From Pycnococcus provasolii (taxonomy: Eukaryota; Chlorophyta; Pseudoscourfieldiophyceae; Pseudoscourfieldiales; Pycnococcaceae), in NCBI GenBank assembly GCA_938743325.2, contig OW568864.1, positions 620,001 to 684,000 on the forward strand: 64,000 bases of DNA. Reading direction: 5' to 3'. The notes under the pieces were generated by a model. That model was not told where the DNA came from. It worked only from the letters and a program-made list of their open reading frames with translations, and searched no databases. Positions 2,915 to 48,342 of this stretch are shown here, piece by piece (position 1 is the stretch's first letter; the number at the start of each line of letters is the position of its first letter). The position numbers and the translations under genes are program-made.

Positions 2915-3658
2915 GATGAGAGGAAAGAAGCTATCTATGAAAGAATGAAATGACACGAGAGCAAAGCAAAGCTTCAAAAGCGTCCGTTCCCCAAGCCAAC
3001 CAACAAGACGACGGAATGAAGATGAAGATGAAGACGCGCTGAAGCGATGAAGATGCTCTTGTTAACAGGAGGAGAGGAGACAACAGGAGGAGGGGAGGGG
3101 AGAGCGGCGAAATATTTACCCTACGTCTAGAGCCAGCGAAGAAGCAGAGCAGAGGAAAGCAGAGGCAGCAGCAGAAGTGAAGCAGGCGTCCCTGAATGAA
3201 GAGGAGAGGGGAAGGGAAAGCAGGCCGCCTGCTTGGGCTTGGCTGAAAGGGGGAACTGTTCTGGAAGGGAGGTAAAATAATAGCCTGCTTGGCACCTACC
3301 TACCTTTTTAATTAGGCTTTTCCATCCCTCGGGACCCTCCTCCCACTGACCCACTCCGACATCCGAGAAGAAGACGACGACGACGACTACCCGGTATTCT
3401 TACCCTTAGAAAAGAGGGGAAAGATCTCCCTGGAGGGAGGCTGCCCGGGCCGTTGGGGTCGAGGTTTTGCTGATGACGACATTTCCCATTCTGGTGACAA
3501 CATCAATCATGGGTTCCTTTTCTAGGGGGGGTTATTTTTAGGGGGTAGTTAGGCTGGCGGTTCTTTCACCTGGTTCTTTCCCATTCCACGTTCCACAGGG
3601 GGTTCGACGTTAAGGGTCAAACCCCCAGAAAGGGAAATAAGGTGGCCGGGGCAGGAAT
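2915..3658. other. Intergenic region upstream of bZIP gene
   Basis: Contains purine-rich stretches and a CGACGACGA run near 3370-3390, and should hold the bZIP promoter. No credible gene is visible; short open frames here lack domain or codon support. Confidence 0.4.
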
Positions 3659-3663
3659 CGGAT

Positions 3664-4109
3664 TGTTAAGGTTCGGGGTTTCTTTTTGGTTTTCTATTCG
3701 GGTTTCCCTTAGGGGATCCCGGTCCTCTTCGTTTGGATCTTTATTTGGGTTTCTTGTGGATACCTGTTGGTCTCCACTGGATATTTTATTGGTTTGTCTT
3801 AAGTGATAAGGTTAGCTCTGGTTGTGTATGGCTTCCAATGGCCAACGCGTTTGGCCAACGCGTTTACTTCGTTTACTTTGAGAATGGTTACATATATAGA
3901 TTCCTTTTCTTTGGTCTTCTCCACTTGAGAACCGTTCCCTCTTGGATTCGATTGGATTCTTTTCGATTGGCTCCCATGAGCCCTCGTTATATGTTGCCGT
4001 TGTAGCGGGCATGACGAGAGGATGTCGACACCCTCTCGTGCCGTGCTTTGCTCTTCCCTCGAGGCCTCACGGTCTCGGGAGGCTCTTTCTTTCCCTTTTT
4101 CTCTCTCTT
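3664..4109 (+). repeat. Left terminal repeat of LTR element
   Basis: Starts TGTTAAGGTTCGGGG and matches 5134-5579 at every base I compared. Confidence 0.88.
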
Positions 4110-5133
4110 CATATGGTCATCCTTGGACGTCATTTGGAACTTCCGCTCTGGCTTCTTCCTGATTCTTCTTTACCTCCTGATCTGGACGCCTATATGCATA
4201 ATACGTTGACTAAGCAGCGCGAGGTTCATAAGTATGCATCGGAATATTTGGTTCGCGCAGCTGCGCGTATGAAGGAAGCTGCCGATGTTCACCGGCGCAA
4301 GTCTAAACCGATCGAAACGGAGTTTGTTAAACTTCGTACGGGCCTTAAGGATTCTCGTGACAAATCTAAATTGGATCCATTTTGGTCTGGTCCTTACCGA
4401 GTTCTCAAGGTCAATGATAACAACACTGTTGAGCTTCAATTGCCTACGAGCTCCTCGATTCATCCTGTGGTTAACCTTGACAAGATAGAGCCATTCTATC
4501 CTGCTGATGTGCGTTTTCCTACTCAGATTTCTACGCCTCCAGCTCCTCAACCAATTCCTGATGATCTGGATGACCCCAACCGATATCATTTCGACATTGT
4601 CTACTTTCGTGACTACTCTAAGTTTCCCGTGGTTCGTTACTGGGTCCGCTGGCAAGGTTACGAAGCTAATGCAACTGACTCTCATAGCTGGGCCTATGAA
4701 ACACCGGATACGCTTTCTATGTGGATTGCTTTGGAACGTGGATATGGTATCTTCCCTGAGAAGGGTATATCCAAACGTCTTCTTTCTCGAATTCGACGAC
4801 ATAAGATGGAATCTTATCAGCATGTTTTTCCTATCTGCCAAAATACACCTACGGTTTCTTCTACTGTTCGCTCTCGTACTCTCTCACGCCGGTCCACACC
4901 TCTTCCTTCTAATTTGGTTGGTCAAGTCATTGAACATCTTCTGGACCGTCCTGCTCTTGATTCCGACCATGCTGTTTTCTTGGCTGGACTTATTCTTTCT
5001 TTTGATTCTTCTACAAACTGTTACCTGGTCAAATATACTGATGGTATTACAGCTACTCTCTCTGCTGATGTCGTTAAGACTCTTTTACTTCCCCCTGATC
5101 CGGTCGGAGTCTCGGATTAGATGTTGGGGAGAA

Positions 5134-5725
5134 TGTTAAGGTTCGGGGTTTCTTTTTGGTTTTCTATTCGGGTTTCCCTTAGGGGATCCCGGTCCTCTTC
5201 GTTTGGATCTTTATTTGGGTTTCTTGTGGATACCTGTTGGTCTCCACTGGATATTTTATTGGTTTGTCTTAAGTGATAAGGTTAGCTCTGGTTGTGTATG
5301 GCTTCCAATGGCCAACGCGTTTGGCCAACGCGTTTACTTCGTTTACTTTGAGAATGGTTACATATATAGATTCCTTTTCTTTGGTCTTCTCCACTTGAGA
5401 ACCGTTCCCTCTTGGATTCGATTGGATTCTTTTCGATTGGCTCCCATGAGCCCTCGTTATATGTTGCCGTTGTAGCGGGCATGACGAGAGGATGTCGACA
5501 CCCTCTCGTGCCGTGCTTTGCTCTTCCCTCGAGGCCTCACGGTCTCGGGAGGCTCTTTCTTTCCCTTTTTCTCTCTCTTAGTAACGTCATAACTTTCTTT
5601 CCCTTACTTATTTCTTGTGCACGTCGCACAGTCTTAAGCACCTGTGGCGCGTCTTCTCGCGTCTACCGCTCACGTCTTACTACGCCTAACTACTGCTCGA
5701 ACAACGCCTAAGTTGTCCTGCAACA
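5134..5725 (+). repeat. Right terminal repeat of LTR element
   Basis: Starts TGTTAAGG and ends in CA next to the CGGAT target duplication (5726-5730). Confidence 0.85.
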
Positions 5726-5730
5726 CGGAT

Positions 5731-6035
5731 CATGTAAGTTACGGAAAGTTACAGTTACGGTAAGTTACGGTAAGTTACGGTAATTTACGGGGCTCCGTCG
5801 TTGCGCGTGGGATAAGTTACGGGATGTTAATCAATCTACAGTGTTATAATAATCGATTTGGTCGTGAAAATAGGTCGGCAGAAAAACCCTAACCGCTTTA
5901 GTCGTAGAAATAGGTCGGCGGCATAAGTTACAACCATAACTAACAATAAGTTACGGTAAGTTACATGTTACGGTAAGTTACGGTAATTTACATAGGCCGA
6001 TTTATAAGTTACCGTAACTTTCCGATCCCTGGGCC
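5731..6035. repeat. GTTACGGTAA-rich repeat region
   Basis: Clusters of the decamer AAGTTACGGT recur at 5736-5800 and 5938-6000, and its complement ACCGTAACTT appears at about 6007-6017. Between them a motif containing GTCGTGAAAATAGGTCGGC occurs twice (about 5860-5880 and 5900-5920, with small changes). The inverted arrangement of the outer motif could be the remains of a non-autonomous DNA element. No coding content. Confidence 0.6.
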
Positions 6036-6395
6036 GGGGGCCTAGAGCTGAAACCCCCATTTTTAGAGACATTCCCCCTCCTCGACTACACCACCCATCC
6101 CACCGAACTGCGAATTCACCCATCGCAACAAAGGCGCGATGAGCGGCAACGCCTCCCGACCTTGGCGCCGACCAACAAAATTTGCCCACCTCCCTCCGAC
6201 CTGGAGCCCCGATCAAAAAAAGGTTGCCGATGGAGAAAAAGGTTGCCCGACCTCTGGCCCCGAACAATCCCGCAATTTTTCAAACTCCCCATGAAGCGCC
6301 CCCTCCACCGACCTGTAGCCACCGACCAAGGTGTCCCCATCCATCTGTCAATTGCCCAACGGGGTTCAAAAAAAGGGGGGATGTTCCATTCTTTC
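6036..6395. other. Intergenic, no gene seen
   Basis: Spacer between two repeat arrays. Open frames exist on both strands but they are short and low complexity, and none carries a recognisable domain. Confidence 0.4.
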
Positions 6396-6530
6396 TTCGA
6401 CCAAAATCTCCGTTATGAGGCGCCCCTCCTCCGACCAAAATCTCCGTTATGAGGCGCCTCATCCTCCGACCAAAATCTCCGTTATGAGGCGCCTCATCCT
6501 CCGACCTAAACTCTCCTTGTGAGGCGCAAT
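6396..6530. repeat. 35-bp minisatellite, four copies
   Basis: Four tandem copies of a unit containing GACCAAAATCTCCGTTATGA start at 6399, 6433, 6468 and 6503 (spacing 34, 35, 35); the fourth is diverged. It creates repetitive open frames that are not genes. Confidence 0.9.
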
Positions 6531-6740
6531 TAGGAGATGCAAGAGCTTCCACCCCAAGGGGTTTCAGAATTGGGGTTTCTGGTTTACGTCCCGGAGATTT
6601 GTCTCCCGGTGTTGTGCCGGTACGTGATGTCACACTGGTGCAGCAGTAGTCCCCTTTCCATTCGGGAAAGATATACTTATAGGTAGATCTTTGGTAAAGT
6701 TTATTGTTGTTACTCCTTCTTCTTGTGACTGACTCTTCAG

Positions 6741-9029
6741 TTACTTCCCCTCCTCCATTATCCCAGCAAAAAGTATCTGCTCACCACCGCTTGCTCCGCT
6801 TGCGCTTATTATTGTGGAGTCACGTACACGCACTGTCGTGCTGCAGTCCTCCACGGCGGCTGTCGCGGCGTCCATGGCAGCAAGCTTCAACGTCGCCTCG
6901 CCGCGTGGGGACCCCAACAGACCCATAAGCGCATCTCCGTCCAGATCCACCACAACTTCATAGCCAGGCAATGATGAACTCTCACCACCACCTAACTCGT
7001 CACCCTGACTGCTGCTAACGTCAAACTCAACAGCGGATACTTCCGCTTGGACCCGAAAGACTCTACGTCTCTCCGCCCGAACGGTCAGTCGTGCCGTCGA
7101 CGATGCAACCTCCTCACGCTCTGCCTTGGTGGTGGAACGCCAACCGTCCACCAACTGGGGGGAAGCAGCATGCCTATTATTATTATCGCGGTGATGCTGG
7201 CGCACAAGGAAGGAACCACCCTTCGTCTTGCCCTTTTCTCCATCGATGCGAAACAGCAAACGCAAAGAAACTGGCGCACCATCGTCATCCGTCGTCGTAT
7301 CGATTTTGGAAGCAGCGTCGTCAAAGTCAACCAAAATAGCGCCACCAGCACCATCCGAAAACGCTGACACGCCTTGACCCGTCGTCTCAACGCGCACGAG
7401 CGAAATGGAAAATCCAGGATCCAAAACGGTGGTCAGTGTTGGAGCACTGAGAACCTTAGCACTGCGTACGGCAGCCTGAGAAACTTCCAGCGATCCCTTT
7501 TTCGACCACACGTACCGAGCATACGCACCGTCTCGTTTGAGCAGAAGTGCAAACCATGCGCTTGCGAGGGAGTGGGAAATGGCCTGCTGAGATCGAATCG
7601 CATCGGAGCACACTCGTTCGCACGAAGGTATGCCGCCATACGTCCTGGCTGCGCAATCGCCGCACGCACCGCCCTCGCACTCTGCTCCGAGCAGTGAGAT
7701 GAAGCAGTGCGTCGCCTTCGCTAATGTTTGCATGACGCGCGGGGACTTGGACGATGCATACAGATCTGATGCGCCTTCCAATCCACCACGTTTATCATCA
7801 GCGCCAGCTACGAGAAGGATTGGCGTTCGCTTGTTCTTCCTGCCATCGAGCAGTTCCTCACGAGCTCCCGTCCCATACGGAAGACGGATACCAATTGTTG
7901 GGGCAACACTCACGACGCCGCGCACGCGCGGCGGCTTCGGCGTCGCAAACTGCCGGCTCGATGACGACGACGATAAGGCCCATTTTGTGTAAGCATCCTC
8001 CATTTTATCTGCGACTCGAACAGCCTCCGCACCCCCAACGCTGTACCCGATGATTCCCACGTTCGAGCAATCGATTCGGCGCACAACTTCGTTGATGACG
8101 GCAGATGATCCTGATGCACCACCTTGTTGTTGTTGTTGGCACACCAGAGAAAGAGTCGCAAGTGCATGTTCACCGGGCTCCTGGAAGGTTTCCTTGTCGT
8201 AACCTCTCTCTGGCAATGCTCGAAGGCCGGACGACCGTAGGCGTAGACTGCACAGCACAACAAAGCCTTGCGATGCAAAACTTTCCAGCCATGCTCGATT
8301 ATGCGTATTCACGAGATCTTCCAGAGGCAGGCGGTAAATGGGATGGACGTAGTACAGTATGGGATGCTTGGTTGCCGCCATTGATGATGACGAAGAAGCT
8401 GGCAAAAAAGCGACGGCATCATCTTGATTCCACACGGTGAATGTCACAATCTTCGCTTTCTCGTCGTCGTTCGCCGCAGTAGTAGGTGGCACGATGGTGG
8501 TGGTCGATGCCATCGTCGGGGCAGAAGAAGAAGAAGAAGAAGGCGATGATGATGACCACGGTGGCTGCCACATAGTTTGAGATGACGATGATGGTGGTGG
8601 TGATGGCGGTGCCGACGGTGCCGTGATCATCCTCCACTGCTGTTGGAGAGGAAGCTGCTGCTTCTCCTCCTGTTCCCATGGGGAGACGAAGTCAGCCGGA
8701 CGTTCCCAAGGTCTCGACCAGTCCTCCTCCTGCTGTGGCCACGACGATTGCGGGAAAGTCTGTGCCGCCGGTGGCGGCGTGTAGTAGGAGCTGTATGGAT
8801 TTTGAGACTGCGGCGGCGGCGGCGGCGACGGCATCTGCCGCCACCTTGATGACGGTGGTGCTCCGTAGTAGAGGTCCGCCATGTCATATCGTCTGTCGGC
8901 TCCTCGCAATCGGCTCGTGATTGATGACAGCACGTTTCCGAGAGAGGGGATTCCTGGCAAAAGCGCGTCAACGCGTACGACATGCGCCACCAGGAGCACT
9001 GTCGTTGAGAGTAGAAGATACCACCGCAT
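6741..9029 (-). CDS. Secreted alpha/beta-hydrolase (chlorophyllase / PETase-like fold)
   Basis: About 762 aa from the ATG at 9029 (the frame opens upstream at a GTG). Residues 1-22 are a hydrophobic signal sequence. About 160 Pro/Ser/Gln-rich residues follow. The hydrolase domain runs about 205-520. The nucleophile elbow is GYSVGG (Ser330); an Asp in AGADD (411-412) and His441 in THC are good acid and base candidates. Spacing and surroundings recall chlorophyllases, PAF-acetylhydrolases and dienelactone-type esterases, so ester hydrolysis is likely. The C-terminal 240 residues are a separate region, probably beta-rich, of unknown role. Being secreted or in the endomembrane system argues against plastid chlorophyllase. 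The substrate is not predictable. Confidence 0.82.
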   Translation of the reverse strand: MRWYLLLSTTVLLVAHVVRVDALLPGIPSLGNVLSSITSRLRGADRRYDMADLYYGAPPSSRWRQMPSPPPPPQSQNPYSSYYTPPPAAQTFPQSSWPQQEEDWSRPWERPADFVSPWEQEEKQQLPLQQQWRMITAPSAPPSPPPSSSSQTMWQPPWSSSSPSSSSSSAPTMASTTTIVPPTTAANDDEKAKIVTFTVWNQDDAVAFLPASSSSSMAATKHPILYYVHPIYRLPLEDLVNTHNRAWLESFASQGFVVLCSLRLRSSGLRALPERGYDKETFQEPGEHALATLSLVCQQQQQGGASGSSAVINEVVRRIDCSNVGIIGYSVGGAEAVRVADKMEDAYTKWALSSSSSSRQFATPKPPRVRGVVSVAPTIGIRLPYGTGAREELLDGRKNKRTPILLVAGADDKRGGLEGASDLYASSKSPRVMQTLAKATHCFISLLGAECEGGACGDCAARTYGGIPSCERVCSDAIRSQQAISHSLASAWFALLLKRDGAYARYVWSKKGSLEVSQAAVRSAKVLSAPTLTTVLDPGFSISLVRVETTGQGVSAFSDGAGGAILVDFDDAASKIDTTTDDDGAPVSLRLLFRIDGEKGKTKGGSFLVRQHHRDNNNRHAASPQLVDGWRSTTKAEREEVASSTARLTVRAERRRVFRVQAEVSAVEFDVSSSQGDELGGGESSSLPGYEVVVDLDGDALMGLLGSPRGEATLKLAAMDAATAAVEDCSTTVRVRDSTIISASGASGGEQILFAGIMEEGK

Positions 9030-15180: not shown

Positions 15181-15387
15181 GACCGTTTTTGTGGAAAAAT
15201 GTGGGGAGGACGAGGGGCCGGCGGTTGCGGATAGCGTTCCCCCTCGAAGGCCGAGGAGAGGCGGAGGAGGAAGAAAAGGGGGAAAGCCAAAGCAACCAGA
15301 GCCACACACAAGGGGGAACCGTCCTTGGATTGAAATCTTGCACGAATGGATGTGCCGAATGCATGCCCATGGACGAATGGAATTTTC

Positions 15388-15485
15388 GGGTTAGGGTTAG
15401 GGTTAGGGTTAGGGTTCGTAAGACCTCGGAACCCCTAACTCCAGCTAAGGTTAGGGTTATTCCAGGGTTAGGGGTTAGGGTTTCC
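15388..15485. repeat. TTAGGG tract between EF-Ts and Sm-D1
   Basis: Four perfect TTAGGG units at 15391-15414, then diverged GGGTTA motifs to 15485. It lies in the 524-bp shared upstream region of two divergent housekeeping genes, so a promoter role like that of plant teloboxes is plausible. Confidence 0.85.
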
Positions 15486-17631: not shown

Positions 17632-17997
17632 GGCCGCACACAACACACCCGCAGAGAGCTCACCCACCTAATGTGACAGAGGCAGTGTTACCTTTAAGGG
17701 CGCGCGAGCGACATCACTCTCTTCTTCTTTCTAGGTACAAAAGAAACGCCAGTACTGATGGCCGGAGTCTAATCCCATCAAAAGCCAATCAAAACCAGCC
17801 AGAAGCCTCAGGCTGTCCGGGGACGAGATACCTGGGAAAACGAGCTTGCAAAAGGATAGAGCTCGGGTTAGGGTTAGGGTTAGGGTTAGGGTTGGCGATT
17901 AGGGCTTGGGCTGGAAAAATGGTACTTGTTAGTGGTACAAATATGGATACAGTACTGTATTCTTACGATAGTGTTATTTGGTACATGCGGTCGTGCG
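17632..17997. other. Spacer with TTAGGG tract
   Basis: Upstream of the coiled-coil membrane protein gene and downstream of GatC. Four TTAGGG-type units lie at 17865-17893. No gene seen. Confidence 0.6.
17865..17893. repeat. TTAGGG tract
   Basis: GGG(TTAGGG)4TT, about 240 bp upstream of the start of the gene at 16416-17631. Confidence 0.9.
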
Positions 17998-27074: not shown

Positions 27075-27082
27075 TCCCACCA

Positions 27083-27101
27083 CTAGCTTGGGAAATTCGG
27101 G
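27083..27101 (+). repeat. Left terminal inverted repeat of hAT element
   Basis: 19 bp, perfect inverted match to 31088-31106; TCCCACCA target duplication immediately outside at 27075-27082. Confidence 0.93.
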
Positions 27102-27112
27102 GTTGTACTGAA

Positions 27113-27182
27113 AAAGAGAATCCGAATCCACCCGAATCGAATTCCGAATTCCGAATCCGCCGAATCTGACGAATTCCGAATC
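27113..27182. repeat. Left subterminal CGAAT repeats
   Basis: About eight copies of CCGAAT/CGAATT-type motifs. In hAT elements subterminal arrays are transposase-binding sites, so the same is inferred here. Confidence 0.8.
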
Positions 27183-27202
27183 GCTTCGCTGATCGAGCGG
27201 CC

Positions 27203-29887
27203 ATGCCGCGCAAGAAGCACGCAGCGTACGAAGAGTGTCTGCCTCCTGGAGATGGTGTAGAACAAGCTCTCAAAAACGCGCTCAATGATGGAGCTCCTGA
27301 CCCATCAAACATGAGTACCGAGGAGCGTTGTGTTTACGTCTTAAAGCGTGGAACGAAAAACAACAATCACCAGTACATGTGCAAAGGATGCGCGAAAGTT
27401 TTTACGGGTACAAGACAGAAGATTCGCATACACATCACGGGAATTGCGGAGAGCTCAACCTATATTTCGAAGTGCCCGCGGCCCTTCTCAGAACACTTCA
27501 ATTTCTGCCTCGGCGAACAACGCAAAAGACTTGGCGACGCCGCGGTATCTTGCCTTCCAGTTTCAAGTACCCAAGCCTTGCAAGGTCTTAAGGAACCATG
27601 TACCGATGGTGATGTCGCTGACGAAGCGAATGATGGCGCTAATGGAGCGAATGATGGCGCTGACGCAGCGAATGATGGCGCTCCGGGGAGTGCACCTTCA
27701 TCGAGCGGTGCTGGGAAGAGAAAGCGAGTACAAAGCTACATATCGAAGAACACGTTTGACCAGACACGCAAGAAGGAGGTAGACGTGGCACTCATGGAGT
27801 TAATGGCAGAGGCGGGCATCGTCGCCAACGCCGTTGAATACAATAGCTTTGATGTAGTATTCCAGAAAGCTCACGAATATGCCGTTGCTACGGGCAGAGC
27901 GTACAAGCCGCCGGACCGGAAAGTTTTTGGAGCTGGCGGCGCGGTACTGCAAGAGGCGGAGCGGCGCGCCGTGAAAGAGCGAGATAAGAAACTTGCTGCA
28001 GTGGCTCGTTTCGGCAATACACTCGTGGCAGATGCCATGACAAAATATCGACGCCCATCGAACAACACCGTGCTCGTCACGCGACGTGGTGTGATATTCG
28101 GAGGTCACGTGGAATACACGGGAGTGAGCAAGACGGATAAGGAGCTTGCAGATGACGCCACGCGCGTGATAAACGAACTTGGGGGAGTTTCGACCATCTT
28201 CCTAATATGCATGGACGGCGCCGCTCTAGGTGTCATGGATATCTTGGCAGCACGCTATCCAACCATGTTGATCCAACGCTGTGCGACGCACGCATTTTCT
28301 CTCATCATTGGGGACATTCAAGAGCTTTTTCCGGAGACGGAAAAGTTCGTACGTGAACTTGTCACGTTTTGCTTTTCACACTCGAAACTTATTTACAAAT
28401 TGCGCTGTATGTCCGTGCCCATGCTCGCGCGTCCGGTAGAGACAAGGATGGGCAGTTTCGTACTCGCGTGCGAACGCATTCTTAGTGGACGCGGCGAACT
28501 CGAGGAGATCATCACGAGCCAAGATACAGTGGAAGCGGTGAAGACCTCGCGTGCTAAGAAGAAAGATGGTGAAACGCCGACGTCGAAGTACAAGCAGTTG
28601 AGATCAAAAGTGCTCAAAAACTACACATGGCAGCAACTTAAAAAAACCCACGACGTTATGATTCCGATAAAGATCGCTTTGCGAATTACAGATACGTCGA
28701 CGGCGAATCTACATCTAAGTGTGCACGCATTCTATTGTGCGTGGGGAGCCGCGGTGAAGGCGGCAGGTGCAGAACCGCCCGACAGTGTCGAATCAGCGGA
28801 GGCGACAAACGACGGCCTGCCCGGGCGCGTCTCGGCGATCTTCGCCAAGCGCAAGAACGACGTGTGCAGTGACGCCGCCCTTGCCGCAAGCGTCGTTAAT
28901 CCGAAGCACGTGCTCAAACCGATTAATCCTTGGACGGGAAAAGAAATGTCAACGCCGTGGGCGCCACGAGGTGCCCAGCAGGCATTTCGGCGGGTTCTCG
29001 GACGGGTTTTCGGAGGGAACGCGAAAGAAGTGAGTGCCGCGTTACAGGAGCACCGCAAATTCTTGCTTGGCGACGATGGGTTCGACGATGAGCAGCTCCA
29101 AGAGATCGGCGAAAATGGCACCGGCGAGGAATACTGGTTCCAAGTAGTGCTAGAGGGTATCGCGCCCCACCTAGCACCTAAAGCACTAAAGCTGTGCACC
29201 GCGTACTCCGGGCAAGGCGGCGCCGAGCGTGCGAATCGGGATGTCACGTTCCAAAAGTCGAAACTCCAAGCACGGCAAGCAGCTGAAACGACAAGAGCCC
29301 GCCTGGCAATCAAATACTCGCTTCGAGCGAGAAACGCGCAGGGCGGCAAGAAAGATAAGAAAGATGAAGCAGAGCCAGAAACGCGCACCTTGTTTGATGT
29401 TTTGGCGGAGAATGTCAAGCGTGCAAGACAATCGCAGAGAATCGTAGCAGCCGCACTAGACGAGGACGACATCGACGTTGACCAGCGTGACGGCGGCGAA
29501 TACGACGCCAACCGCTGGCTTGCTCACATTCACAATCGAAACGACGAAGAAGAATGCGAGGCTGACGAAGAAGATGACGACGAGGATGAAGTTTGCAACC
29601 AGGAGGAAGACGATGACGACGACGAGGGAGATGACGACGACGAGGGAGATGACGACGAGGAGGAACATGAAGAGGAGGAGCTGAAAGATGACGACGAGGG
29701 AGATGACGACGAGGAGGAACATGAAGAGGAGGAGCTGAAAGATGACGACGAGGAGGAACATGAAGAGGAGGAGCTGGAAGATGACGACGAGGAGGAACAT
29801 GAAGAGGAGGAGCTGGAAGATGAAGACGAGGAGCTAGAAGATGGTGGTGGAGTTAGAGTTGGTCGATGGAACTTCTGGCGACGATGA
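27203..29887 (+). CDS. hAT transposase, apparently intact
   Basis: 894 aa with no interruption. Residues about 53-75 (YMCKGCAKVFTGTRQKIRIH) are a BED-type zinc finger; its Cys pair and downstream His/Cys bind DNA ends. A short Ala-Asn-Asp-Gly repeat (about 137-160) follows. The RNase H-like core lies about 270-480: ICMDGA holds a catalytic-type Asp and RCATHAF the C-x2-H element typical of hAT. The segment about 670-715 (SGQGGAERANRDVTFQKSKL) matches the C-terminal dimerisation region. The last ~130 residues are an acidic tail built from GDDDEEEHEEEEL-like repeats, unusual for hAT. The frame starts 102 bp inside the left repeat region. It looks able to encode a full-length protein; activity is unproven. 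Confidence 0.9.
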   Translation: MPRKKHAAYEECLPPGDGVEQALKNALNDGAPDPSNMSTEERCVYVLKRGTKNNNHQYMCKGCAKVFTGTRQKIRIHITGIAESSTYISKCPRPFSEHFNFCLGEQRKRLGDAAVSCLPVSSTQALQGLKEPCTDGDVADEANDGANGANDGADAANDGAPGSAPSSSGAGKRKRVQSYISKNTFDQTRKKEVDVALMELMAEAGIVANAVEYNSFDVVFQKAHEYAVATGRAYKPPDRKVFGAGGAVLQEAERRAVKERDKKLAAVARFGNTLVADAMTKYRRPSNNTVLVTRRGVIFGGHVEYTGVSKTDKELADDATRVINELGGVSTIFLICMDGAALGVMDILAARYPTMLIQRCATHAFSLIIGDIQELFPETEKFVRELVTFCFSHSKLIYKLRCMSVPMLARPVETRMGSFVLACERILSGRGELEEIITSQDTVEAVKTSRAKKKDGETPTSKYKQLRSKVLKNYTWQQLKKTHDVMIPIKIALRITDTSTANLHLSVHAFYCAWGAAVKAAGAEPPDSVESAEATNDGLPGRVSAIFAKRKNDVCSDAALAASVVNPKHVLKPINPWTGKEMSTPWAPRGAQQAFRRVLGRVFGGNAKEVSAALQEHRKFLLGDDGFDDEQLQEIGENGTGEEYWFQVVLEGIAPHLAPKALKLCTAYSGQGGAERANRDVTFQKSKLQARQAAETTRARLAIKYSLRARNAQGGKKDKKDEAEPETRTLFDVLAENVKRARQSQRIVAAALDEDDIDVDQRDGGEYDANRWLAHIHNRNDEEECEADEEDDDEDEVCNQEEDDDDDEGDDDDEGDDDEEEHEEEELKDDDEGDDDEEEHEEEELKDDDEEEHEEEELEDDDEEEHEEEELEDEDEELEDGGGVRVGRWNFWRR
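27606..27680. repeat. 24-bp repeat in transposase gene
   Basis: Three in-frame copies of a unit with GCGAATGATGGCGCT, encoding Ala-Asn-Asp-Gly-Ala repeats. Confidence 0.8.
29620..29855. repeat. Acidic-tail tandem repeats in transposase gene
   Basis: Imperfect units of GATGACGACGAGGAGGAACA followed by a GAG-rich part, coding Asp/Glu-rich repeats. Confidence 0.85.
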
Positions 29888-30049
29888 GCTCGACCTATAT
29901 TTCGAAGTGCCCGCGGCCCTTCTCAGAACACTTCAATTTCTGCCTCGGCGAACAACGCAAAAGACTTGGTGACGCCGCGGTATCTTGCCTTCCAGTTTCA
30001 AGTACCCAAGCCTTGCAAGGTCTTAAGGAACCATGTAACGATGGTGATG
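29886..30049 (+). repeat. Second copy of a transposase-gene segment
   Basis: 164 bp matching 27451-27614 with three mismatches by my alignment (constant offset 2,435). It begins at the transposase stop codon and ends exactly where the captured host fragment begins, so it marks the joint of the capture event. Confidence 0.93.
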
Positions 30050-31010
30050 GCGCTTCCTCTGCCGCGGCTTCCTGCCGAGCTCGAACGCGGCATCCATGCC
30101 CACGTGCGACAGCTCCGTCCGTGTTGCGTACCCTCGGAACGGCCACAGCAACCCGGCGATGGTGCTTAGAATCTCCCAGATGCACCACGCGCGCGTCAGC
30201 GGGATCGGATCGTTCCAAGGCATCAAAATCAGCACGGTGTGTTGATACTCGCGACGGCCTCCTCGAACGTCGTGAACCACCAGTCGGGCGGCACTTGCGA
30301 GCTCGCGTGCTGGTTGACGGTGAACACGTCGAACCACACGAACGTATCCTCAGAGAGACGGCTAAGCGCATCGACGACGTTGACAAATATGTACTTCCAG
30401 GCGTGCGACACAAACGCCGTTGCGGACTTCACCTCAGCAGGCTCGGTGCTTTTCAGCAACTCGACATACGAGGTTCTGACGTGCTCCGTCTCAGGCTTGA
30501 CGATATCAAAGCACACGTCGTTCGTCGTCATGAGCTCGAACGGAATCTCGGTGTACTGCACATTTGTGGGTTTGCCATCGCCATCCTTGCCTGCGGCGTT
30601 CGTGCGCTCGCGGTGCTCTGAAAGGTTATCCACGTTGATTTGCAAGACGTCATCTTTACCACCGCCATGTTCCGCCTTAAGGTAATCTCTTGCAGTCCAC
30701 GTGTACTTCTTTCCCTTGCATGATTCTGCGAATCGTCTCAGCCACGCAAGACGCACACTGAGTAGAGGAAACACGTGCTCGGTTGAACGAAGCGTATCCT
30801 TTTTATGCTTAATGACCTGTTCAAATCCCTCAGAGAATTCCTCCAGTGTCATGACCCCGTCACCATCCGTATCCAAAGCAGAGAAGAGCGAGTTTCCCAG
30901 CGACTCTTCACCGTTCAGCTCAAGCCACGCGCGTAGTTCGTGCAAGGACAGAAGGCCGTCGCCGTTCGCGTCGACTTGCCTCCGCCGAAGCGCGGCCGCC
31001 ACCGCCACCG
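30050..31010 (-). pseudogene. Captured fragment of host EF-hand / SHAWKY-NQH-domain gene
   Basis: Reads on the minus strand inside the hAT element. From its 5' side it encodes two canonical EF-hand loops, DANGDGLLSLHE and DTDGDGVMTLEE, then about 150 residues and a domain with SHAWKYIFVNVVDALS and FVWFDVFTVNQH. It continues with HTVLILMPWNDPIPLTRAW in the neighbouring frame, so one single-base shift at about 30240 interrupts it. The 3' end is cut at 30050 by the duplicated transposase segment, and the 5' end merges with the subterminal repeats with no convincing start. The family occurs in protists and algae; its function is unknown to me. This is a gene fragment carried as cargo, not a working gene. 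Confidence 0.82.
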
Positions 31011-31011
31011 C

Positions 31012-31087
31012 GCCCGAATCCGAATCCGCAGCGCAGAAACGCCATCCGAATCCTCCCGAATCGAATCCCGAATCCCGAATTCCGAAT
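31012..31087. repeat. Right subterminal CGAAT repeats
   Basis: CCGAATCC/CCCGAAT motifs in the same orientation as the left array, just inside the right inverted repeat. Confidence 0.8.
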
Positions 31088-31106
31088 CCCGAATTTCCCA
31101 AGCTAG
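31088..31106 (-). repeat. Right terminal inverted repeat of hAT element
   Basis: Inverted match to 27083-27101; TCCCACCA target duplication follows at 31107-31114. Confidence 0.93.
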
Positions 31107-31128
31107 TCCCACCACCTGGCCACCAAAC

Positions 31129-36872: not shown

Positions 36873-37984
36873 AAACTTTACCGAAGCAGCTGTGCAGAGC
36901 GAAGAATGGAAAAGTGGTTTGCGCGAGAGAGAAGGTACCGAGAGCCTGGCGAGAGGAGGGCGGGAAAAAAAAAGGAAAAACCCAAATAATCGACACGGTT
37001 AGGGTTAGGGTTAGGGTTAGGGTTAGGGTTAGGGTTAGGCTCCTCAAGCACACTGAGCTTCTGCCCCTACCACTACGATATGGGGATACCGGCCGCGACA
37101 CCTGGCCGCGAGGTTGCCCAATTGAGTGAATTGACCACCGGCCGCGAGGTTGCAATAATTACAATTTACATAAGATACCGGTCTCGCTAACCAACTTCTA
37201 TGTACAGTGCATAGAACCGTTGAACGCACTCAGTTTGCTCCAACCTCTTTGCTACATAAAGTTTAAAAACCTTTAAAGGTAGCAGAAGCAGGATGGAAGA
37301 TGAGGTGTTTGTTGGCGTCACCATTCCATCCATCCATCCAATCCATGAGTTCATACCTTAGACTAACCATCCGTCTCGCCTTCGCCTTCGCCTTCGACCA
37401 AAGCGACTGGTCCATACCAACCTAGTGGTAAATGACTACCGTACTGTACTGTACCGTTGGTAAATAAGATGCTTGAAGCCCGTTGAGGAAGGCCTAACAA
37501 GTAACATCCTGCTTCGAATTCTTAACAAACGGCCTTTTTTTAATTAAAAAATTCACGGCATGGGAATGTGGGAGGATGATAGACTACGGGTAACGAATGG
37601 TAACGAAGCACGGCAAAGCACGGCAACGAAGTATAACGTCATATTATTCTCGGCCCTCCTTTTTAAAGTCAGTGGATCCAGTCACTGCTACGATAGTAGT
37701 ACTTACACTTGGCACTTCGGGCACCTCGGGTGGACGCTCGTTGGCGGCCATTCCATCCTTGCAAGAATAGATTAGCCCGGTTCACGTGCACCACCACCAC
37801 CTCGCACCACCACCACCACCTTCATCTGTTTTCTCTCATTCATCTGTTCGTGAAATCGCGAGAGCAAGTCTTTCTTAAGCCTCTCTCTCTCTCTCTCTCC
37901 AATAGCAATAGCTCTCATAATAGCTCTCATAGATACTTAGCAGGTTCACACATCTTGCCCTCTTCCTATTTTCATAGTGTAAGT
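36873..37984. other. Divergent intergenic region, 1.1 kb
   Basis: Between APC2 (minus) and the integrin-like gene (plus). Contains the longest TTAGGG tract of the window, ATCC and CCTTCG short repeats near 37330 and 37380, and a CT microsatellite at about 37881-37899. No gene seen. Confidence 0.5.
36997..37040. repeat. TTAGGG tract upstream of APC2
   Basis: Six perfect TTAGGG units at 36999-37034 plus TTAGGC, about 125-170 bp upstream of the APC2 ATG. Confidence 0.93.
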
Positions 37985-47689: not shown

Positions 47690-48342
47690 GGCGACACATG
47701 GTGGTTTTTTTTAACAGGGGATTTGCCTAAGAAGTAGGAATTTTCGCCCTTTTTGGAGGGAGCCCAAAAAATTAACTTTTGCGCTATTTGTGCGCTTGAG
47801 ATGCGGTTTGTTGCGCTGGATTCCTCGTCTTTCGAAATGGTGTTTAGAACAAAACAACACTCAAAACCGACCTGTAGAACGCCGTCAGCGCGTTGTGAAG
47901 TGAGTGCACTCGGCTGATCTATAACGGGGAAATATAACGGGGAGGGGCCCAAATTAAAATTTCCCCGTAGTAGAATTCAGTTCAGGGGATGTTATGGGAA
48001 AATGAACCAAGAATTTGATCGAATGTTGGGGGAGGGAGATTTTCTGATTTTTTATCCCCTCCCCCCCCTAGTCGGAGCAATGCGAAGGGGAAGTTCCCCG
48101 TTATATTTCCCCGTTATAGATCAGCCGAGTGCACTCACTTCACAACGCACTGACGGCGTTCTACAGCTCCGTTTTGAGTGTTGTTTTGTTCTAAAGTCCA
48201 TTACGAGAGATGAGGAATCCAGCGCAAAAAACCGCATCTCAAGCGCACAAATAGCGCAAAAGTTAGTTTTTTGGGCTCCCGACAAACGCTCCTACTTCTT
48301 AGGCAAATCCCCTGTTAAAAAAAAAAAAGAAACAAAGTCGCC
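47690..48342. mobile_element. Fold-back / MITE-like inverted-repeat element
   Basis: Two arms of about 235-260 bp, at 47690-47950 and 48087-48342, are inverted copies of each other at roughly 90% identity by eye. They surround about 135 bp of unrelated sequence. The outer ends read GGCGAC, then a T-rich run, then TTAACAGGGGATTTGCCTAA. No protein is encoded and I find no convincing target duplication. This fits a non-autonomous DNA element (fold-back or long-TIR MITE); the parent transposase is not in the window. Confidence 0.78.

Follow-up and report, generated by a model that had tools for sequence, protein, structure and literature searches.

A 64,000-base stretch of the genome of the marine green microalga Pycnococcus provasolii (C4:620001-684000, called the window here) contains at positions 27083-31106 what is most probably a recently inserted, apparently complete hAT transposon of the DUF659 branch. 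A patchwork of a piece of its own transposase gene and pieces of two host genes replaces or extends its 3' stretch and appears to be carried as passenger cargo. The capture of host gene pieces by the element is well supported, as the cargo has three sources and the donor families are present in the same genome. An earlier sequence-only reading of this DNA had proposed that a hAT element captured a fragment of a host gene, and in this central respect our analysis bears it out.

Ends, target duplication and transposase

The inverted repeat CTAGCTTGGGAAATTCGGG is found at 27083 and at 31106 and is perfect across 19 bp (19/19). Directly outside it, the element is bracketed on both sides by TCCCACCA, 8/8 identical, which represents a target-site duplication of the 8-bp hAT type. 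Since this exact duplication lies outside perfect ends, both ends were used in one insertion. The hexamer CCGAAT occurs 25 times on the forward strand of the window, with six copies in 27083-27200, eight in 30980-31106 and none in the remainder of the element. The inverted ends, the target duplication, the subterminal arrays and an open transposase frame had all been described from the letters alone, and each holds as described; the frame has 894 codons without a stop. The terminal CTAGC shows no clear match to what we take to be the short hAT end consensus.

Ends of this kind are rare in the genome, which was searched as 32,333,900 bases in 46 contigs. With up to three mismatches allowed, the 19-mer occurs at seven sites in 32.3 Mb, three of them exact (both ends described here and one on C33) and four with three mismatches. 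A control with the reversed 19-mer gave four matches, so that only the exact sites stand out.

The transposase frame opens with an ATG at 27203 and closes with a stop codon at 29885-29887. In the genome search DUF659 (PF04937) reaches 37.5 bits, above the cut-off of 34.7, and in the protein scan 33.2 bits, just below that value; two homologues, P0002 and P0001, score 38.3 and 34.3 bits. Residues D277 and D338 are invariant in all three aligned proteins, and E675 lies within a GGAER motif common to both homologues that reach this region (P0002 and P0123). We take these three residues to be the candidate catalytic triad. An AlphaFold model built from a three-sequence alignment has a mean pLDDT of 42.5, too poor to assess catalytic residues, and a PDB sequence search with the transposase profile returned chance-level matches only (E 3.1 and 4.9). 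On the strength of its DUF659 transposase and its 8-bp duplication, the element is assigned to the hAT superfamily, despite a dimerisation domain that went undetected.

The protein search, with 7,994 candidates scored, gave as nearest relative a 539-aa protein from P. provasolii itself (67% identity over 60% of the query), and an 845-aa protein from an ENA contig matched at 45% over 86%. The profile search (7,993 scored) added a 453-aa protein from Pseudoscourfieldia marina, 69% identical over 31% of the query. Within the genome, eight matches were found at the protein level: the element itself, its internal duplicate and six weaker relatives of 27-58% identity on C23 (two), C29, C11, C14 and C40. 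The relative at C23:62114-63808 has a 627-aa open frame, is 30% identical and is the sole other DUF659 locus in the genome search (58.7 bits). A further relative at C29:331875-332252, 45% identical over residues 229-354, was missed by that search. Dispersal of the whole element was considered and rejected: a DNA search with the transposase gene gave 46 matches, and among the candidates scored, the best 40 of 68, its non-repetitive part matched only C23 (74%, query 121-425). The acidic repeat region has many genomic DNA matches, which were treated as low-complexity likeness. The open frame and the recent-looking insertion suggest that the transposase may be active.

Cargo pieces and their donor families

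Between the transposase stop and the right end lies a patchwork of three pieces (Table 1). The sequence-only reading had seen here a single EF-hand piece of about 960 bp in the opposite direction. Its orientation is right, as the EF-hand piece is antisense relative to the transposase, but its size and single origin are not: 831 bp of EF-hand sequence are joined to 92 bp that match an unrelated gene on C9 and to a 169-bp duplicate of transposase coding DNA. The open frame around the C9 match is 886 aa long and shows weak similarity to His_Phos_2 (E 9.9e-6, 25.6 bits, cut-off 23.6). For the EF-hand piece, the matching C26 sequence lies in a stop-to-stop frame of 930 aa that encodes two EF-hands as well as TPR repeats. 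Host coding sequence inside an element, with relatives elsewhere in the genome (93% on C26, 92% on C9, both in long open frames), agrees in this respect with transduplication.

Table 1 Features of the element and its borders (window positions; a dot marks features without assigned strand)
Position	Strand	Feature
27075..27082	.	Left target-site duplication copy, 8 bp, TCCCACCA
27083..27101	+	Left terminal inverted repeat, 19/19 against the right one
27102..27200	+	Left subterminal region with CCGAAT repeats
27203..29887	+	hAT-type transposase gene, 894 aa, no internal stop, DUF659, acidic repetitive C-terminus
27451..27619	+	Transposase coding DNA repeated as cargo piece 1 (internal duplication)
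29886..30054	+	Cargo piece 1, duplicate of 27451-27619, 165/169 identical (4 differences), overlaps the transposase stop codon
30056..30147	-	Cargo piece 2, 85/92 (92%) against C9:125627-125718
30149..30979	-	Cargo piece 3, EF-hand/'SHAWKY' part of a TPR gene, 831 bp, 775/832 (93%) against C26:257472-258303
30980..31087	.	Right subterminal region with CCGAAT repeats
31088..31106	-	Right terminal inverted repeat
31107..31114	.	Right target-site duplication copy, 8 bp, TCCCACCA

The joints between the pieces are almost blunt. Single bases at 30055 and 30148 match neither neighbour, and the same is true of about 9 nt (30980-30988) ahead of the native right end. Extra bases of this kind at the borders fit what patch repair can leave.

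A genome search covering cargo and right end returned 20 matches in all: the element itself, 12 EF-hand family loci, two weaker stretches of the same family (73% on C16, 68% on C7), C33, C9, the internal duplication and two right ends on C15. The EF-hand family thus comprises at least 12 loci at 78-93% identity. A total lack of donors elsewhere, named beforehand as a finding that would speak against capture, is therefore not what the genome holds. The intact EF-hand/'SHAWKY' gene that had been suggested as a check has a counterpart in the open frame on C26, the only family member whose frame was examined; no family locus represents the exact donor, the best reaching 93%.

Relative to the C26 frame, the captured part begins beyond the candidate start codons and ends short of the TPR part. 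A 1-nt deletion at about 30242-30244 shifts its frame, and the deleted base is present in all 12 aligned paralogues. With its frame broken in this way, the EF-hand cargo seems to be a dead passenger. On C26 the frame runs without interruption across the captured part, so an RNA and a DNA origin of the cargo cannot be told apart.

How close is C26 to the donor? The alignment contains 57 differences, namely 56 substitutions and one gap, and counted site by site the substitutions divide into 34 synonymous and 22 nonsynonymous. Without constraint a nonsynonymous share of about 72% would be expected (binomial p 3e-7). As the divergence is mostly synonymous, the greater part of it accumulated while the genes still worked; C26 is related to the donor, and these differences rule it out as the donor itself.

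The substitutions were also polarised by majority with 11 other paralogues, of which only some cover the first 220 bases. The cargo has the family base at 34 of them and a derived base at 22, and changes strictly unique to the cargo number 14 in 831 positions (seven nonsynonymous, seven synonymous). This cargo-unique change of 1.7% stands beside 2.4% (4/169) in the internal duplication. The two ages roughly agree, and within this small sample they are consistent with one capture period. Identity of the cargo to each paralogue varies along its length, and the EF-hand paralogues seem to exchange sequence.

Related ends elsewhere in the genome

Related ends are also found on other contigs. On C13, C15 (two) and C23 there are ends with 87-91% identity to the left end, and the stretch 31002-31094 is 80% identical to the two right ends on C15. 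Beside the left ends on C13 and C23 no right end was recognisable within the 4.9 and 6.2 kb examined. The right ends on C15 are without a clear outer part, and no target duplication was seen there.

The two C15 relatives measure about 0.8 kb each and are without a transposase gene. The region C15:143000-152999 is a near-perfect palindrome, its arms 100% identical over 2068, 856 and 442 bases, with one element of about 0.8 kb per arm. As two arms of one palindrome, the pair is counted as one event. Its interior matches C6:541909-542100 at 152 of 195 positions, and C6 is open in one frame across the 210 bases seen and coiled-coil-like by eye. The C15 relatives thus probably carry a second captured coding piece, antisense to their left-to-right direction.

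This shared orientation touches on the question of whether the cargo could have a function, with the antisense EF-hand stretch giving rise to a regulatory RNA or a short fusion protein for the element or the host. In addition to the antisense piece on C15, such a role could draw on the common direction of the EF-hand and C9 pieces, both of which are read in their native frames by a 108-aa frame at 30023-30349. Yet the EF-hand piece is without its first codons and carries a deletion that the 12 aligned paralogues all lack, and we regard a function as quite unlikely. The even split of cargo-unique changes, seven to seven, says little at such a sample size. The host pieces would rather be passengers that are truncated, frameshifted and antisense to the transposase.

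A second right end with cargo is found on C33. There, 229021-229491 equals 30636-31106 of the window at 471 of 471 positions and ends on the last base of the terminal inverted repeat. This copy comprises the right end and 344 bp of the EF-hand cargo, and no further right end with cargo exists. From the first base after the repeat, its right flank shows 80% similarity over 75 positions to an element-free sequence on C38. On its left it adjoins a 5'-truncated importin-like segment, while on C39 a 1215-aa open gene frame continues past the break. The copy is probably what remains of another insertion after loss of its left part, but it could instead have been placed by repair. Of the several element copies with the same cargo that the sequence-only reading had suggested looking for, this right-end remnant is what was found. 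On this evidence the spread of the cargo is minimal, and wide spread was not seen.

The importin-like segment itself is repeated, with copies shown as 100% identical at C4:835846-839098, C11:871729-872536, C3:53916-54656 and C33:225770-229022. They have a common right break (C33 is 18 bases shorter) and differing left ends. The whole stretch C33:222000-229022, leading into the hAT right end, is strung together from pieces that match several different chromosomes. In local coordinates of C33:222000-231999, these pieces match C9 at 1-799 (98%) and 2221-2287 (97%), C13 at 2318-2963 (98%), C34 at 2981-3198 (97%), C28 at 3381-3763 (94%), C34 again at 3761-3866 (95%) and the C39 importin at 3864-7023 (99%), with the hAT right end next. 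Matches overlap by three bases in two adjacent pairs. A repeat at local 799-2222, for which 26 of the 51 matches listed start at 792-807 and the ends are variable, resembles a truncated non-LTR (long terminal repeat) retrotransposon.

Origin of the patchwork and other gene-carrying hAT elements

How could such a cargo be stitched together? The most likely route would start with a double-strand break inside the element, or with an excision gap, that underwent faulty repair. The repairing end would have copied or joined ectopic DNA in successive steps, taking up part of the element's transposase gene itself and fragments of two host genes, 92 bp from the one and 831 bp from the other, before it reached the right end. 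Lying between functional-looking ends, the pieces would have been carried with the element to C4, and probably once more, as the remnant on C33 suggests. Since the joints are near-blunt, template switching and end joining are not separable.

Several observations weigh against this explanation. The exact donor is absent, the best EF-hand relative differing by 7%, and strong microhomology was not seen at the cargo joints. The hAT dimerisation domain (PF05699) was not detected in a scan of the whole protein, nor in its C-terminal part at E up to 10, and the only match of a genome search with this profile lies on C24, outside the element. A genome search with the joined flanks matched only both flanks themselves, so that no empty C4 site was found. 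The genome holds only one full copy, and the copy on C33 is without a left end and without a matching duplication; repeated mobility of the cargo is thus not proven. The surroundings on C33 are likewise pieced together, so that repair instead of the transposase could have put the copy there.

The single full copy and the missing empty site would also suit an EF-hand sequence resident at C4, bracketed by chance by two ends from separate insertions. This scenario has to explain one exact 8-bp duplication at outer ends that are identical at 19 of 19 positions, the recurrence on C33 of the same right end with 344 bp of cargo stopping at the tip of the repeat, and pieces from three sources joined nearly base to base, which leaves it barely plausible. 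Even less credible is an assembly artefact. Identity over 471 bases on C33 is what a misjoin might produce, but the ends, the duplication and the joints are biologically coherent, and the CCAP190/2 assembly is described as HiFi-based at 444-fold, with a quality value (QV) of 58.2 and Hi-C curation, and as comprising 44 chromosomes and two organelles (PMC11130579).

A further alternative holds that the patchwork was assembled elsewhere and the hAT ends were added later, or that the right end was swapped with a non-autonomous element. On C33, pieces like those of C9, C13, C34, C28 and C39 are strung together beside the same right end, and patchworks may therefore form in this genome without a visible transposon. 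However, the patch nearest the transposase copies the transposase gene itself, which points to repair inside the element, and the joint of the C9 and EF-hand pieces is spanned by no other locus among the 20 genome matches. We therefore consider either version very unlikely and prefer repair within the hAT element. A broader idea, possible though doubtful, is that breaks in this small algal genome are commonly repaired by patchwork, also outside transposons. Such repair would join short stretches of distant genes, as on C33, and sometimes take place inside a hAT element, which then moves the patchwork. If true, the element would be a recorder of genome-wide template switching with its own gene among the patches.

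Gene capture by hAT elements has been described in other lineages, and the process is already known in plants, fungi and animals. Hatvine-6 elements of grapevine, as presented in PMC2528002, share transposase and ends, and their remainder varies and often corresponds to introns or exons of the host or to non-genic DNA. They occur in a land plant in several copies, whereas here an alga has one full copy, its patchwork drawn from three sources with the element's own gene among them. In the fungus Pseudocercospora fijiensis and relatives, a complete DUF659 hAT element with a 20-bp inverted repeat and an 8-bp duplication carries a histone H3 gene (PMC6710886). It is likewise without a detectable dimerisation domain, but has hundreds of copies mutated by repeat-induced point mutation (RIP) and a cargo that probably derives from a transcript or retrocopy, in contrast to the low copy number here. 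The H3L hAT of Pyrenophora tritici-repentis, likely autonomous, has within its inverted repeats a histone-like gene as well as a complete transposase gene (PMC3538342). The gene it carries is open and expressed and exists in several copies, unlike the broken fragment described here. Given these published accounts of transposase-bearing hAT elements with captured genes (PMC6710886, PMC3538342, PMC2528002), the novelty implied by the sequence-only reading was overstated.

Non-autonomous systems offer another comparison. Maize Ds and Ds-like elements contain filler DNA between hAT ends that is occasionally genic (two Ds2, nine Ds-l4), and break repair has been suggested as its origin; the same paper calls gene capture a rare hAT feature (PMC3260210). 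The Ds elements are non-autonomous, whereas here the transposase is retained. Among the animal Pack-TIRs (elements with terminal inverted repeats), 208 of 370 are hAT, with gap filling and template switching proposed (PMC8277862), and like the Pack-hATs of maize they hold host sequence between hAT ends, as is the case here (PMC8277862, PMC8903248). Pack-TYPE elements are defined as non-autonomous and without transposase (PMC8903248). The label 'Pack-type', given to the element at the outset, does not strictly suit its 894-aa open transposase, and the C15 pair fits the definition better.

In the main text of a 2026 review on plant gene capture the word hAT does not appear (PMC13317346). Among the titles listed by literature searches on hAT, capture, transduplication and algae, in a collection without most subscription journals, no algal case of hAT gene capture appeared. 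What is new is thus the algal host and the patchwork of self plus two genes. Fragment capture by a transposase-bearing hAT is thereby documented for a marine green microalga, a lineage distant from the plants, fungi and animals of the accounts considered here, and three patches of different sources form a readable record of how a cargo is stitched. The functional impact is probably nil.

The window contains further repeats outside the element. Positions 3661-3960 and 5131-5430 are an identical repeat (300 bases shown, spacing 1470 bases), possibly long terminal repeats or a tandem duplication. An inverted repeat at 47752-48286 has 192-base arms that are 94% complementary and lie 151 bases apart. 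Internal GGGTTA runs, telomere-repeat-like and far from the chromosome end, are found at 15377-15482, 17842-17905 and 36973-37048.

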